Source: Micromonospora sp. CP22
Lineage (GTDB): Bacteria; Actinomycetota; Actinomycetes; Mycobacteriales; Micromonosporaceae
DNA length: 64,000 bases
Assembly (NCBI RefSeq): GCF_009712475.1
Contig: NZ_VCJO01000003.1
Location: 372,916-436,915 of the forward strand
Direction of reading: 5' to 3'
Made by a program: the position numbers and the translations under genes. Below, piece by piece: positions 38,421-44,882 of the stretch. The notes under the pieces are model-generated. The model worked only from the letters and a program-made list of their open reading frames with translations. It had not been told where the DNA came from and made no database searches. Positions within the stretch are counted from its first letter, which is position 1, and each line of letters begins with the position of its first letter.

Positions 38421-38906
38421 TCAGGCCGGCGGCGGAGCCAGCCGGACCTTCAGCGCCTCGCGGACCACGTCCGGCACGTGCGGCGTGACGTCACCGCCCC
38501 ACTTGGCCACGTCCTTGACCAAACTGGACGAGAGGAAGGAGTAGAGCGGATTGGTCGGCATGAACAGCGTCTCGACCCCGGCCAGACCGATGTTCATCTG
38601 GGCCATCTGCAACTCGTAGTCGAAGTCGCTGACCGCTCGCAGGCCCTTGATGAGCACGGTCGCCCGCTGCGCCCGGCAGAAGTCCACCAGCAGGCCACGG
38701 AAGGACTCCACCCGGACGTTGCCGTAGGAAGCGGTCACCTCGCGCAGCATCTCGATGCGCTCCTCGACGGTGAACAGGCCACTCTTCGACTGGTTGACCA
38801 GTACGCCGACGATCACCTCGTCGAACAGCCGGCTGGCCCGGCCGACGATGTCGAGGTGACCGTTGGTGACCGGGTCGAACGAGCCGGGACACACCGCACG
38901 TCTCAT
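38421..38906 (-). CDS. coaD: Phosphopantetheine adenylyltransferase
   Basis: CoaD makes dephospho-CoA from phosphopantetheine and ATP. The 161-residue protein has the nucleotidyltransferase signature [15 protein letters not shown], substrate residues in [27 protein letters not shown], and the ATP loop [18 protein letters not shown]. Its ATG overlaps the rsmD stop (ATGA), so translation is coupled. Confidence 0.97.
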
Positions 38907-39466
38907 GATCGGCGACCGTACCAAAGAGTAGTTTCGCCGTACCTGCGACTACGCTGGCCAGTGACGCCTTCCACCCAATCGACAGGTCCGCCACGGCTGG
39001 ATCGCTCCACCACCACCAATGCCTCCGGTGCCAGCCACCCCCCGTCCACGAGGGCGGTGAGCATCGCCCGTACGCCGTCGTCGGACAGCGCGTACGGCGG
39101 GTCGGCGAAGACGACGTCGTACGGGTCGCCCTCCGGACCGGCGGCCAGGACGGTGCCGACCTTGCCGGTGACCAGTCGCGCCGAGGAGCCGACCCGCAGC
39201 GTCGTCAGGTTCTCCCGGATCACCCGGGCGGCACGCGGGTCCGACTCGACCAGCAGCGCGTGCGCGGCTCCCCGTGACAGCGCCTCCAGGCCGACCGCGC
39301 CCGAGCCCGCGTAGAGGTCGGCGAAGCGGACACCGTCGAGGTCCAGCTCCGCCTCGATCGCGCTGAACAACGCCTCGCGTACCCGGTCGGAGGTCGGTCG
39401 GGTGCCGGCGCCGGCCGGGGCGGTGATCCGCCGGCCGCCGAGGCTGCCGGCGACGATGCGGGTCAT
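38903..39466 (-). CDS. rsmD: 16S rRNA (guanine966-N2)-methyltransferase RsmD
   Basis: RsmD methylates G966 of 16S rRNA in the 30S subunit. Over 187 residues it shows [16 protein letters not shown], the AdoMet loop [19 protein letters not shown] and catalytic [13 protein letters not shown] stands 6 bases before the ATG. It forms an operon with coaD. Confidence 0.96.
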
Positions 39467-39560
39467 CGTTCGCTCCTGCTCATGCCCTCGACGCTACGCG
39501 ACGCCCGACCGGCGACCGGCACGACGCACGTGATCCTCCGCACCCATCCGAAGACCTTCC

Positions 39561-39650
39561 GTATATGGGAGATCACGGATTAACAACATCATCCTTAGCT
39601 CCGCATGAAAACTATGGCCGACCAAGCCTGATCGCTAATGTCTGCCGGGT
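39561..39650 (+). promoter_or_regulatory. Upstream element 1, shared with the second LPVTG gene
   Basis: This 90-base block aligns without gaps to 40851-40940, 56 of 90 identical by eye. The distal half is AT-rich for this genome and shares GTATAT, GATC and AACATCAT with CTTA. The proximal end shares TCGCTA and TCTGCC around a TANNNT -10 (TAATGT, 39636-39641). No canonical -35 is present, which suggests an activator or alternative sigma factor. The gene starts 64 bases beyond the block. Confidence 0.6.
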
Positions 39651-39713
39651 GTCGGAACGGATCGGCCTGTCCGTCGCCGACGATGCTTCCGGTTCCCCCA
39701 CTCAGGAGTAGAC

Positions 39714-40685
39714 GTGAACCGTCTGAACTTCCGGCGCGTCGCGGCAGCCGCCGCTGGTGTGCTGATCGGCCTCGCCGGTGTTGCCGCCGTCGCCGCCCCG
39801 GCTAGCGCTCACCACCCCATCATCAAAGGTGTCGGCTGCAAACTGACGGACGGCACCGTCAAGGTCGAGTGGACCGTCACCAACAGCGAGCGGCACTGGG
39901 TCGCCACGGTGGCCGCCGTGCAGACGCCCTCCGGCGCCCCGGTCACCAACATCGTCGTCGGCGCCGAGGTGCCGAAGGCGGGCGAGGGCGCGCTGGTCGG
40001 CGAGCAGATCGTGCCGGGCGGCCAGCAGGCCCACCTGACCGTCAAGGCGGTCTGGAAGAAGAACCGGAACACGGTCACCAACACCCAGACCGGTAAGGCC
40101 CGGATCGTCGGCAAGTGCGCGGAGCCCGAGCCGACGCCGGAGCCCAGCGAGAGCCCGGAGCCGAGCGAGAGCCCCGAGCCCACCGAGAGCCCCGAGCCGA
40201 GCGAAAGCCCGGAGCCCACCGAGAGCCCCGAGCCGAGCGAGAGCCCGGAGCCGACCCCGACGCCGACCGGCGAGCCGGTGGTGCCGGAGCCCGGTGAGCC
40301 GACCTTCGAGCTCACCGAGACCTGCGACGAGCTGACCTTCCTGATCAACAACCCGGCCGACGGCGTCCCGTTCTCGATCACCCTGACCTCGGAGAAGGGC
40401 GCGACCAAGACGCTGGAAGCGGTGCCGGGCGAGACCACCTCGGTCACCTTCGACGCGTACCCCGGTCTGGTCGTCACGCCCAGCTACGAGGACGAGGACG
40501 GCACCGTCGAGGGCGAGTCGGTGGCCTGGGAGCAGCCTGAGGGCTGCGGCAACGGCGGAGGCGGCGGCCTGCCGGTCACCGGTGCCGCCACCGGCGGCAT
40601 CATCGCCGGCGCCGCTGTGCTGCTGGCCGCTGGCGCGGCGCTGTTCGTGGTGACCCGCCGACGTCGGGTGCGCTTCACCGCCTGA
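39714..40685 (+). CDS. LPVTG cell-wall-anchored surface protein, short paralog
   Basis: A 323-residue secreted protein. The signal peptide ends at PASA32, leaving a mature N-terminus beginning His-His. Residues 33-135 form a beta-rich domain with two Cys (C42, C135) homologous to the downstream paralog. A PEPSESPEPTE repeat stalk (137-185) follows, then a second two-Cys domain (195-278), a Gly stretch, the sorting signal LPVTG at 286-290, a membrane helix and an RRRRVRFTA tail. A sortase would attach it to peptidoglycan; none is encoded here. CAGGAG 5 bases before the GTG fixes the start. Function unknown. Confidence 0.88.
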   Translation: MNRLNFRRVAAAAAGVLIGLAGVAAVAAPASAHHPIIKGVGCKLTDGTVKVEWTVTNSERHWVATVAAVQTPSGAPVTNIVVGAEVPKAGEGALVGEQIVPGGQQAHLTVKAVWKKNRNTVTNTQTGKARIVGKCAEPEPTPEPSESPEPSESPEPTESPEPSESPEPTESPEPSESPEPTPTPTGEPVVPEPGEPTFELTETCDELTFLINNPADGVPFSITLTSEKGATKTLEAVPGETTSVTFDAYPGLVVTPSYEDEDGTVEGESVAWEQPEGCGNGGGGGLPVTGAATGGIIAGAAVLLAAGAALFVVTRRRRVRFTA

Positions 40686-40705
40686 TCCTGCTGAACCGAC
40701 CTGAT

Positions 40706-40743
40706 CCGAGGGCGCGTCGACCTGCTGGTCGACGCGCCCTCGG
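40706..40743 (+). terminator. Strong terminator after the first LPVTG gene
   Basis: A perfect 17-bp stem (40706-40722 with 40727-40743) with a TGCT loop lies 21 bases after the stop codon. There is no U-tract. It isolates the two LPVTG genes into separate transcripts. The remainder of the 374-base gap holds the second upstream element and nothing else I can identify. Confidence 0.85.
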
Positions 40744-40850
40744 CGGCTTCGATCCGGATCGTCGCCAGTCCGCAGAGCCGGTCCAGTTTCCCGGACAGGT
40801 CACCTCTAAAGTGGACATCGATGCGTAAAGCCGCCAGGTGTTCACTCACC

Positions 40851-40940
40851 GTATATCAATGATCTCGCATTCATAACATCATGCTTAAGGCCTGCTGAGG
40901 GCTGTTTCGGTTCTCACGATCTCGCTAGGGTCTGCCCGGT
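40851..40940 (+). promoter_or_regulatory. Upstream element 2, shared with the first LPVTG gene
   Basis: The partner of the block at 39561-39650. Its -10 candidate is TAGGGT (40926-40931) in the conserved context TCGCTA-TCTGCC. The AT-rich distal half lies about 40-75 bases upstream of the -10, where an activator would bind. The gene starts 120 bases beyond the block, against 64 for its partner. Confidence 0.6.
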
Positions 40941-41059
40941 GCGGCGTCTTCGCCGCCGGCCATCGGCACGGGAGGCACCCCCCAGGCGCGGCAACGTGCC
41001 GCCAGCGCCGTCCGTCCCGCCCGCGCCGACCCAGACGCTCTTTCACCCCGGGAGTACGC

Positions 41060-42562
41060 GTGATCCGACCCAAGCTGTCGCTGCGGCGACCGCTGGCTGT
41101 CCTGGCAGCCGCCCTCATCGGCATGACCGGCGCAGCAGTGGCGGCAACCCCGGCCGCCGCCCACCACACCACCATCACCGCCACCGCCGTTTGTGACCAG
41201 CTCAGCGGCGAGCGGGTGATCACGTGGAAGGTGGTCAACAGCGAGCGGAATACCGCCGCCACCGTCAAGAAGGTGACCGCCGAGCCGTCGACCCCCGTCA
41301 CGGTGCTCGTCCCGGGTGCCGATTCCGTCGACCTTCAGGGTGTGGCGATCCCCCGAAACGGCTCCGTCCAGGCCGTGCAGCGGGTGCCGGGCGCGACCAC
41401 GAGCGCCAAGCTCGTCGTCGAGGCCCGCTGGGACAACAAGCGGGAGAAGACGAACGAGGGCAGCATCAACCTCGCCGCCGACGCCGCCTGCAACCCCGCG
41501 CCGAAGTGTGTCGACGCCAGCCAGGCGAAGTACAGCCACACCTTCGACGGCCCGAAGGGCACCGCGACGGTCAAGCTGGACGGTGACCTGCCGCTGTGCG
41601 GCGACGCGAAGCAGTACTTCACCCTGGTTTCGTACTTCGCTCCGCGCCCGCAGTTCGCCACCCCGCAGTACGTCTTCGGCGAGCCGGACAGCGACTTCCT
41701 CGGCGCCGGCCAGACCGAGATCGAGCTGAACGTCGGTGTGCCGGACTGCCACACCCAGGTCGACCTGATCTGGGGCGGCGTCGACGAGGTCATCGACCCG
41801 CTGGTCGAGGACGGCCCCCGCTACGGCTCCAAGAAGCTGGGCGAGAAGAGCGCTCCGGGCAACCGCTCGTCGGGTCCGCAGGGTTGGTACAACGGTGGCA
41901 GCAAGAACTGCACCACCCCCGCGTCCACCTTCGCCTCCGCCTGCGACGGCACCGTCACCGTCTCACTGAGCAACGACGGCTCGATCTCCAAGTACCCGGT
42001 CGAGTTCGAGGTGCGGGGCGAGAACGGCTGGTCCAAGAAGGTCACCGTGGAGCCGGGCAAGGCGGACAACGAGACTGTGGTGCCCGCCGAGCACGCCGGC
42101 AAGATCGAGGTCCTGGTCGAGGGCAAGGTCATCGAGAACGGCACGTACTCCTGGGAGCGTCCCGAGGAGTGCCCGCTGCCGACGGTGACCGCCGACGCGG
42201 ACTGCGAGACCTTCGGGCTGACCGCCTCGAACCCGGAGGGTGGCATGCCGGTGAAGGTGGAGTTCACCTACGGCGACAAGACCGAGACCCGTACCGTCGC
42301 CCCGGGCTCGGCCGAGAAGGTCAGCTTCCCGGCCGGTGACGAGGAGACGGCGCTGGTCGTCCTGCCGGAACTGGGCCTGGAGCTTGAGGTCGTCTACGCG
42401 CCCGAGGGCTGCGGCGGCGGTGGCGGCGGCGAGGAGCCCCCGGGCCTGCCGGTGACCGGTGCCGCGGCCGGTGGCATCGCCGCCGGTGCGATCGCCCTGC
42501 TGGCGCTGGGCGCGGTGCTGTTCGTGATGGCACGGCGGCGGCGGATCCACTTCACCGCCTGA
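41060..42562 (+). CDS. LPVTG cell-wall-anchored surface protein, long paralog
   Basis: A 500-residue secreted protein. The signal peptide ends at PAAA34 and the mature chain begins His-His-Thr. Residues 35-144 match the first domain of the upstream paralog (VCDQLSGERVITWKVVNSER). A unique middle domain (150-284) contains four Cys and GVPDCHTQVDLIWGG. Two tail domains (285-371 and 374-451), each with two Cys, resemble the single tail domain of the short paralog. LPVTG is at 463-467, followed by a membrane helix and RRRRIHFTA. GGGAG 5 bases before the GTG supports the start. Likely a disulfide-stabilised surface adhesin or structural protein; function unknown. Confidence 0.88.
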   Translation: MIRPKLSLRRPLAVLAAALIGMTGAAVAATPAAAHHTTITATAVCDQLSGERVITWKVVNSERNTAATVKKVTAEPSTPVTVLVPGADSVDLQGVAIPRNGSVQAVQRVPGATTSAKLVVEARWDNKREKTNEGSINLAADAACNPAPKCVDASQAKYSHTFDGPKGTATVKLDGDLPLCGDAKQYFTLVSYFAPRPQFATPQYVFGEPDSDFLGAGQTEIELNVGVPDCHTQVDLIWGGVDEVIDPLVEDGPRYGSKKLGEKSAPGNRSSGPQGWYNGGSKNCTTPASTFASACDGTVTVSLSNDGSISKYPVEFEVRGENGWSKKVTVEPGKADNETVVPAEHAGKIEVLVEGKVIENGTYSWERPEECPLPTVTADADCETFGLTASNPEGGMPVKVEFTYGDKTETRTVAPGSAEKVSFPAGDEETALVVLPELGLELEVVYAPEGCGGGGGGEEPPGLPVTGAAAGGIAAGAIALLALGAVLFVMARRRRIHFTA

Positions 42563-42578
42563 CCTGAGCTGAGCCGGT

Positions 42579-42616
42579 CCGCCCCGGTCGCCCCGTACCA
42601 CGGGTGACCGGGGCGG
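42579..42616. terminator. Convergent terminator between the LPVTG gene and recG
   Basis: An 11-bp perfect stem, CCGCCCCGGTC and complement, encloses a CCCGT/ACGGG inner stem. It lies between the stop of the long LPVTG gene and the 3' end of recG, so it can act on both strands. Confidence 0.7.
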
Positions 42617-42677
42617 TTCGTCTGTCGGCACCGGGCGACCGGAGCGGGCCGAACCGTGGACCAGCGGACGGAGGCAG

Positions 42678-44882
42678 TCAGCCCTTTTCGAGGTACTCGG
42701 CGCGATCGGCGTCGACCAGCGCGGCGACCGAGGCCGCGAGCGCCGGGTGTCGGACCAGCTCCGGATCCTCCTCGATCAGCGCGATCGCCTCCGCCCGCGC
42801 GTCCCGGATCAGGTCCGCGTCGCGCAACAACGACAGCAGGCGCAGGTGCGAACGGCGGCCGGACTGTGCCGCGCCCAGCACGTCGCCCTCCCGGCGCTGC
42901 TCCAGATCCAGCTCGGCGAGCTTGAAACCGTCGGTGGTGGAGGCCACCGCGTCCAGTCGCTCCCGCGCCCCGGTCCCCTCGGCCGCCTCGGTCACCAGCA
43001 GGCAGAGCCCGGGGGCGCTGCCCCGGCCCACCCGACCCCGCAACTGGTGCAGCTGCGAGACGCCGAACCGGTCGGCGTCCAACACCACCATCATCGTCGC
43101 GTTGGGCACGTCCACGCCCACCTCGACCACCGTGGTGGCCACCAGTACGTCGAGCTTCCCGGCGGCGAAGGCCCGCATCACCGCGTCCTTCTCGTCGGCG
43201 GGCAGCCGGCCGTGCAGCACACCGATCCGCAGACCGTGCAGCGGCCCGTCGGCCAGCAACGGCGCCACCTCGGTCACCGCGAGCGGCGGCCGGCGCCCGT
43301 TGTCGTCGACCGCCGGCGGCTCCTCGTCGGTGCCGGACATGTCGTCGCCGATCCGGGGACAGACCACGTACGCCTGGTGGCCCGCGTCGACCTCCTCACG
43401 CAGCCGACGCCAGGCGCGATCGAGGAACGCGGGTTTCTCGGCGGCCGGCACCACGTGCGAGGCGATCGGTGAACGACCGCGCGGCAACTGGGACAGGGTG
43501 GAGATCTCCAGATCGCCGTAGACGGTCATGGCCACCGTACGAGGGATAGGGGTGGCGGTCATCACGAGCACGTGCGGCGGCTGCTCCGCCTTGGCCCGCA
43601 ACGCGTCCCGCTGCTCGACCCCGAACCGGTGCTGTTCGTCGACCACGACCAGACCGAGGTCGGCGAAGTCGACCCCCTCGTAGAGCAGGGCATGGGTGCC
43701 GAGCACGATGCCGGCCGCCCCGCTGGCGACCTCGGCCAACGCCCGGCGTCGAGCCGCCGCGCCCAGTGAACCGGTGACCAACTCCACCCGGGTGGCGTGT
43801 TCGGCGGCACCCAGCTCACCGGCCTGCGCGAGCGGGCCGAGCAGGTCGAGCATGCCCCGGTGGTGTTGGGCGGCAAGCACCTCGGTCGGGGCCAGCAGAG
43901 CGGCCTGCCCACCCGCGTCGACCACCTGGAGCATCGCCCGCAGCGCCACCACGGTCTTGCCGGAGCCGACCTCGCCCTGCAACAGGCGGTGCATCGGATG
44001 ACCGGTGGCCAGGTCGGCGGCGATCTCACCACCGACGTCGCGCTGACCGGCGGTCAGCTCGTACGGCAGCCGGGCGTCGAACGCATCCAGCAGGCCACCC
44101 GAGCGCGCGGGACGGGGACGGGCGGGCGAGGCGGCGGCGTCACGCTTGCGGCGGACCAGGGTCACCTGCACCGCGAACGCCTCGTCCCACTTCAGTCGCC
44201 GACGGGCCCGGTACAGCTCCTCCCGGCTGGACGGCCGGTGGATCTCCCGTAGGGCGGTGCCGAGGCCGACCAGGTTCCGGCTGGCCCGCACCGTGGCCGG
44301 CAGCGGATCCTCCGGCGGCGCCACGGTGTCCAACACCACCCGTACGCAGCGGGCGATCACCCAGGTGGGCACCGCCGCAGCCGCCGGGTAGACCGGAATG
44401 AGCGCGCCCGCGAACTCCTCGATCTGCTCGCTGGCCGCCGCCTCGGTGTCGGTCTGCTCGCCCAGCAGGACGTACTCCGGCCCGTTGAGCTGCCGCCGGC
44501 CCCGGAACTCGGTGACCTTCCCGGCGAACAGCCCCCACCGGCCGGGCCGCAGTTCCCGCTCGCGCCACGCCTGGTTACCGAAGAAGGTGAGGGTGAGGCT
44601 GCCGCCGGAGCCGTCGCCGACGGTCACCTCCAGCAGGTTGCCCCGGCGCTGACGCATCGGGCGTACGGCGGTGCGCTGCACCTGGGCCAGCACGGTGACC
44701 TGTTCACCGACGTCCAGCGAGCGGATGTCGGTGTGCTCGCCGCGCTCGTCGTAGCGGCGGGGGAAGTGGTAGAGAAGGTCACCGGCGGTGTGCAGGTCGA
44801 GGTGGCTGGCGAGCGCCTTGGCGGTCTTCTCACCGACCAGCTTCTTCAGCGGGGTGTCCAGGTCGGACGGTGCTGCGGTCAT
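42678..44882 (-). CDS. recG: ATP-dependent DNA helicase RecG
   Basis: RecG remodels stalled forks and Holliday junctions. The 734-residue protein has the N-terminal wedge/OB domain (VTVLAQVQRTAVRPM through FFGNQAWR), then helicase motifs: Walker A GEVGSGKTVVALRAML, DExH-type VVDEQHRFGVEQR, MTATPIPRT, and motif VI QLRGRVGRG. The TRG region and C-terminus are complete. It overlaps the upstream DAK gene (ATGA), a conserved actinobacterial pair. Confidence 0.96.
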   Translation of the reverse strand: MTAAPSDLDTPLKKLVGEKTAKALASHLDLHTAGDLLYHFPRRYDERGEHTDIRSLDVGEQVTVLAQVQRTAVRPMRQRRGNLLEVTVGDGSGGSLTLTFFGNQAWRERELRPGRWGLFAGKVTEFRGRRQLNGPEYVLLGEQTDTEAAASEQIEEFAGALIPVYPAAAAVPTWVIARCVRVVLDTVAPPEDPLPATVRASRNLVGLGTALREIHRPSSREELYRARRRLKWDEAFAVQVTLVRRKRDAAASPARPRPARSGGLLDAFDARLPYELTAGQRDVGGEIAADLATGHPMHRLLQGEVGSGKTVVALRAMLQVVDAGGQAALLAPTEVLAAQHHRGMLDLLGPLAQAGELGAAEHATRVELVTGSLGAAARRRALAEVASGAAGIVLGTHALLYEGVDFADLGLVVVDEQHRFGVEQRDALRAKAEQPPHVLVMTATPIPRTVAMTVYGDLEISTLSQLPRGRSPIASHVVPAAEKPAFLDRAWRRLREEVDAGHQAYVVCPRIGDDMSGTDEEPPAVDDNGRRPPLAVTEVAPLLADGPLHGLRIGVLHGRLPADEKDAVMRAFAAGKLDVLVATTVVEVGVDVPNATMMVVLDADRFGVSQLHQLRGRVGRGSAPGLCLLVTEAAEGTGARERLDAVASTTDGFKLAELDLEQRREGDVLGAAQSGRRSHLRLLSLLRDADLIRDARAEAIALIEEDPELVRHPALAASVAALVDADRAEYLEKG

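Follow-up and report, generated by a model that had tools for sequence, protein, structure and literature searches.

Organization of the rsmD-recG interval

The stretch of Micromonospora sp. CP22 DNA that we analyzed (64,000 nt in length; the window) contains, in order, coaD-rsmD on the minus strand, two LPVTG protein genes of 323 and 500 aa on the plus strand, and recG followed by a DAK-type gene on the minus strand. The features discussed below, in window coordinates, are:

38903..39466, minus strand: rsmD, 16S rRNA methyltransferase homologue, divergent neighbor (tblastn synteny)
39550..39654, plus strand: promoter element copy 1, ~105 bp (gapless paralogue match; CM R1, E=1.8e-22; information profile)
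39558..39599, plus strand: distal block of copy 1, putative regulator site, family consensus nCCGTAnATCAATGATCTCGAATnnACAACATCATnCTTAGG (alignment A2; R2, E=3.0e-8)
39636..39641, plus strand: -10-like hexamer TAATGT of copy 1
39714..40685, plus strand: cwpA-type gene, 323 aa, with signal peptide, N domain (33-135), PEPSES repeats, one R domain (199-278) and LPVTG
40705..40744, plus strand: hairpin after gene 1, TCCGAGGGCGCGTCGACC-TGCT-GGTCGACGCGCCCTCGGC
40840..40944, plus strand: promoter element copy 2, ~105 bp (CM R1, E=2.9e-26; gapless paralogue match)
40848..40889, plus strand: distal block of copy 2, putative regulator site (R2, E=2.3e-10)
40926..40931, plus strand: -10-like hexamer TAGGGT of copy 2
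41060..42562, plus strand: cwpB-type gene, 500 aa, with N domain (35-144), B domain (150-292), two R domains and LPVTG anchor
42575..42620, plus strand: hairpin terminator after gene 2
42678..44882, minus strand: recG, convergent neighbor, closing the syntenic interval

The translated C-termini of the two proteins read LPVTGAATGG... and LPVTGAAAGG..., each followed by a hydrophobic stretch (transmembrane helix) and an RRRR tail. No Pfam domain scored above its curated cut-off in either the 323-aa or the 500-aa protein. By domain profile, the proteins of the family fall into four architectures, N-R, N-R-R, N-B-R-R, and B-R-R; in the window, gene 1 encodes an N-R protein and gene 2 an N-B-R-R protein. 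Within gene 1, 18-bp tandem repeats at 40119-40274 encode PEPSES/PEPTES and are the counterpart of the disordered stretch of CwpA.

In Actinoplanes missouriensis, CwpA and CwpB were shown in 2026 to suppress exploratory growth and to promote the formation of sporangia; both are anchored by SrtE (PMC13251363). One genome in our set (G290) carries at this locus (L121) a 337-aa protein with Cys 44, 146, 213, and 292, together with a 436-aa protein. The two proteins, with the length and cysteine positions of the first, are exactly as published for CwpA and CwpB (PMC13251363), which identifies G290 as A. missouriensis. Gene 1 of the window matches A. missouriensis CwpA at 35% over 334 columns (E 4e-27), and residues 139-500 of gene 2 match CwpB at 32% over 434 columns (E 5e-31). 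Judged from these alignments, the LPVTG genes of the window are counterparts of cwpA and cwpB. The window's own genome (5.85 Mb, 56 contigs) contains six sortase-domain frames, the best of which has a long N-terminal part and a TLTTC motif, like SrtE. Its sortase domain, at G000:C50:3846-4226 (L258), ends a 956-aa open frame, and it is a likely candidate for the counterpart of A. missouriensis SrtE.

A ~105-bp element precedes both genes

The first-pass annotation had aligned 39561-39650 with 40851-40940 at 56 identical positions out of 90 without a gap, and this count was reproduced exactly. When each block was slid over the whole window, the mean was 22.3-22.5 matches (sd 3.9), and the best unrelated placement reached 39-40/90; the resemblance of the two blocks is real and far above chance. 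The conserved details were also as annotated, namely GTATAT, GATC, ATT, AACATCAT, CTTA, and an AT-rich distal part, with a drifting middle (2/10 at offsets 60-69). The stretch around TANNNT and directly 3' of it (TCTGCC.GGT) is conserved as well as the distal part (16/20 at offsets 70-89). Comparison across species delimited a sharply bounded island of ~105 bp at 39550-39654 and 40840-40944, so that the original 90-bp block was slightly short.

The two genes were said to have separate terminators and differing 5' leaders. A hairpin indeed lies 3' of each gene, and the distance from element to start codon is ~60 nt in one case and ~115 nt in the other. The stem of the first hairpin (GAGGGCGCGTCGACC...GGTCGRCGCGCCCTC; window 40705-40744) is nearly unchanged after the first LPVTG gene in several genera (L101, L103, L107, L108, L121, L185, L187, L193, L197, L198, and L210), and its exact 15-mer occurs nowhere else in its own genome.

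Within the element, the distal block aligned over 42 columns in 44 diverse sequences with zero gaps (alignment A2). In the family, CTGA comes next at fixed spacing, then a variable stretch, and then TA..GTC at offsets 86-92. A -10-like TANNNT hexamer, as in HrdB-type promoters, is present in both copies, and TA..GT is conserved at offsets 86-91, whereas the -35 region is not conserved. With an 18-bp spacer, the hexamers at the -35 position are CTATGG in copy 1 and CTGTTT in copy 2, with at most 2/6 matches to TTGACA; no TTGACA-like -35 exceeding 3/6 matches was found at 16-18 bp spacing in either copy, and a scan for sigma-70 consensus promoters gave no match. If transcription starts ~7 bp 3' of the -10 hexamer, then the distal block spans ~-91 to -50. 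In a subset of the genus (L165-L172 and L173-L180), the distal block (ATCAANGATCACGAAT..ACAAC/TACATT) is kept with a different proximal half ending in CAGTACAGTC, which implies that the two halves evolve separately.

The A+T richness of the distal block within a high-GC genome, together with its position ahead of a -10 hexamer whose -35 is weak, would also fit an UP-like sequence, or a binding site for a nucleoid protein, by which basal promoter strength is raised with no specific regulator involved. We consider this unlikely, since the block reaches ~-91, past the usual UP range, and its near-invariant specific bases, gapless over 44 sequences, are more than A+T richness demands. As long conserved noncoding DNA upstream of genes, the block might alternatively be a leader RNA or a small RNA gene. 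This reading is very improbable, given zero consensus base pairs in the RNA structure check, no Rfam family for the element, and the location of most of the block upstream of the conserved -10. A riboswitch or other structured RNA was rejected for lack of consensus pairing and of an Rfam match.

The element is conserved and its flanks are not

Information per base was ~1-2.4 bits in the blocks of the island compared to ~0.2-0.4 in both flanks, within the genus and in other genera alike. At rsmD identities where the flanks retain an alignment excess of 1-6, the distal block retained 17-22 of 42 and the proximal part of the element retained 8-15. These scores were obtained with the same gapped aligner for element and flanks and were shuffle-corrected. 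Element copies were located by similarity, but inside intervals defined by synteny, and true copies scored ~50-200 units above the next-best position. The first-pass annotation would have been undermined by divergence equal to that of neutral spacer; instead, the island is conserved and its flanks are near random. This contrast supports the view that the block is functional DNA under strong selection.

A functionless residue of a recent tandem duplication could have been expected from two adjacent paralogues, and some genomes have three element-gene units. Such an origin is extremely unlikely, because the N domains are far diverged, the domain content differs, and conservation of the element across genera without conservation of the flanks already contradicts it. 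We regard it as a genuine promoter element that is strongly conserved and specific to the cwp locus; neither chance nor a duplication leftover accounts for it.

Distribution among relatives

The exact core AACATCATNCTTA occurs twice in the window's own genome, both times at the cwp locus, and 31 times in 151 genomes of the genus, nearly always in the same 100-bp context. Among 85,000 named genomes, the exact pattern was found in Micromonospora, in one Micromonosporaceae bacterium, and in a few unrelated metagenome bins, as expected by chance. A sequence-only model built from an alignment of 30 element copies (R1) detected the element in 149/160 genomes of the genus and in 196/301 genomes of the family, representing 17/44 genera. 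At the syntenic loci examined, rsmD stands on one side of the element and an LPxTG gene on the other; the element mostly starts ~85 bp from the rsmD start codon.

Where the genes form separate units, each unit has its own element, as with the two in the window and at L187, L190, L194, L199, L210, L103, and L112. At L114 (G224), three element-gene units are arranged in tandem between rsmD and recG. In Actinoplanes-type pairs (L107, L117, L121, L223, and L224), one element serves two genes.

Eleven genomes of the genus gave no match to the element. Nine of these have lost both genes (G093, G054, G132, G085, G095, G010, G097, G154, and G148). Another, G047 (L124), has no detectable element and only a C-terminal remnant of an LPVTG gene left, and in G024 the genes are kept and the element has decayed or diverged. 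In six genera, an LPxTG gene stands at the locus without a recognizable element, which implies that the gene can work without it.

The proximity of the first copy to the rsmD start codon (~85 bp in many genomes) raises the question of whether the element is an rsmD promoter or a bidirectional rsmD regulatory region. This is scarcely credible, because second and third copies lie far from rsmD and the nine genomes that lost element and LPVTG genes retain rsmD.

One locus rather than a regulon

The first-pass annotation proposed a common regulator recognizing a new motif and suggested a genome search for the combined motif. In the window's own genome this search yielded no copy outside the cwp locus, and a motif marking a wider regulon is not supported. 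With R1, the full element was found in its own genome only at the two known copies (E 3e-26 and 2e-22), with nothing else below E 3, and the 42-bp distal block (R2) likewise matched only the two locus copies. In 12 genomes from six genera (the window's own and 11 relatives), no match to the distal block fell below E 0.1 outside the locus, and among 200 genomes of the order, matches occurred in family members only; no second locus was convincing. A 13-mer matching exactly at another site (L050) was rejected as an extra copy, since the surrounding element is wholly absent.

Because the genome holds no other copy, there is no known regulon to which the site could be assigned. It would be unusual for a regulator to have just one 40-bp site, and the distal block could consist of several shorter sites packed together. 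To our knowledge, none of the BldD, MtrA, GlnR, PhoP, AdpA, and CRP motifs resembles the distal block, a comparison that we treat as a lead and not as a test.

Promoter and genes may have different histories

It had further been claimed that the whole promoter-gene unit was duplicated. This claim stands only in part, and its simple form is opposed by the different gene architectures (N-R and N-B-R-R) and by phylogeny. A single genus clade uniting the N domains of both genes was rejected (AU p = 0.0002), which places their split before the origin of the genus; gene 1 clusters with genes from other genera. By contrast, the promoter copies of the genus group together (99/98). Forcing the promoter tree onto the gene tree was only marginally rejected (p 0.063 and 0.027), as the sequence is short. 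The conflict implies that promoters were homogenized or co-evolved within the genus, or that one coding region replaced another while the promoter stayed in place.

The element precedes genes of all four architectures. B-R-R genes stand directly behind it at L188, L191, L193, L202, and L203. Relic elements, each a second, decayed copy whose gene has been deleted, remain at L119 (G007; interval offsets 85 and 333, the relic being the first copy in order) and at L183 (G127; offset 74). Together, the B-R-R genes behind the element and the relics favor a stable promoter with changeable genes. One extension of this idea is that a one-locus regulator reads the ~40-bp family-wide site and that the promoter is a fixed 'socket' behind which genes are swapped among the four architectures, with copies in one genome kept alike by conversion or by co-evolution with the regulator. 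We put this forward tentatively, as a possibility.

Discussion

We think it probable that the block serves the cwp locus as a dedicated composite promoter, activator-dependent, common to both genes, and present once per gene in the window. Activator-dependent promoters usually combine a conserved upstream block at fixed spacing with a poor -35, and it is from this combination that we infer dependence on an activator. RNA polymerase carrying the principal (HrdB-type) sigma factor would use the TANNNT -10 hexamer, and the poor -35 would make transcription depend on a protein bound at the ~40-bp distal block (~-91 to -50). That protein would probably be an activator touching the polymerase across the CTGA segment near -42. 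With the element on both genes, one signal would drive both surface proteins. The idea of a common regulator for both genes, put forward in the first-pass annotation, is favored to this extent: the weak -35, the TANNNT -10, and the distal block at fixed spacing across genera have the expected shape, and co-expression of the two genes would follow. In Actinoplanes and similar relatives, the same control would be exerted through one element ahead of the cwpA-cwpB pair. The element would stay beside rsmD while the genes behind it were gained, lost, and rebuilt. Its preservation at this single chromosomal site across much of the family makes it probably the dedicated switch for CwpA/CwpB-type proteins.

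Published expression data bear on the sign of this control. Transcripts of cwpA and cwpB are high in vegetative growth and fall during sporangium formation (PMC13251363). The same profile would also result if a repressor or anti-activator used the distal block as its operator, for instance to shut the locus down during sporulation. The poor -35 in both copies argues for activation, and the distal block lies upstream of the -35, whereas most repressors bind over the core promoter. Repression therefore appears unlikely to us, and activation is the reading that we retain. The accessible part of the same report left the regulation of cwpA-cwpB open and contained no promoter analysis of these genes that we could find (PMC13251363). 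In the literature on Micromonospora or Actinoplanes promoters, we found nothing on the rsmD-recG cwp locus.

In kind, the element belongs with promoters that carry a putative activator site; its novelty lies in the depth of its conservation, its confinement to a single locus, and its link to CwpA/CwpB. It offers a delimited DNA segment, kept in much of the family, as a handle for finding the cwp regulator, and it illustrates that a bacterial promoter can be conserved to a greater degree than the architectures of the genes under its control. The cwp locus is widespread in Micromonospora, which goes unmentioned in the available text of the CwpA/CwpB report (PMC13251363).

Comparison with known systems

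The element resembles activator-dependent HrdB (sigma-70 type) promoters of actinobacteria in its TANNNT -10, weak -35, and upstream block at fixed spacing. Unlike these, it extends over ~105 bp, is conserved across genera, and belongs to one chromosomal locus, with no further copies found.

The long chaplins ChpA-C of Streptomyces are, like CwpA and CwpB, sortase-anchored surface proteins of mycelial actinobacteria. They differ from the window's system in locus and promoter, and the Pfam chaplin domain is absent from both window proteins. A similar action, in which the hyphal surface is made hydrophobic, has been proposed for ChpA-C and the Cwp proteins (PMC13251363).

The closest system is the cwp locus of A. 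missouriensis. Like the window, it has the order coaD-rsmD-[LPVTG genes]-recG; its proteins carry LPVTG sorting signals as well as homologous N, B, and R domains, and a hairpin again separates the two genes. The promoter element recurs there too, as a single copy ahead of cwpA that scored 18.8 by PWM compared to -71 for the next best position. Its cwpB is B-R-R and lacks both an N domain and an element of its own, whereas gene 2 of the window has both. There, cwpA-cwpB are described as an operon (PMC13251363), whereas the window has one element per gene and an intervening hairpin, with readthrough possible. Since the Actinoplanes hairpin between cwpA and cwpB lies inside this described operon, it may set a ratio of partial termination.
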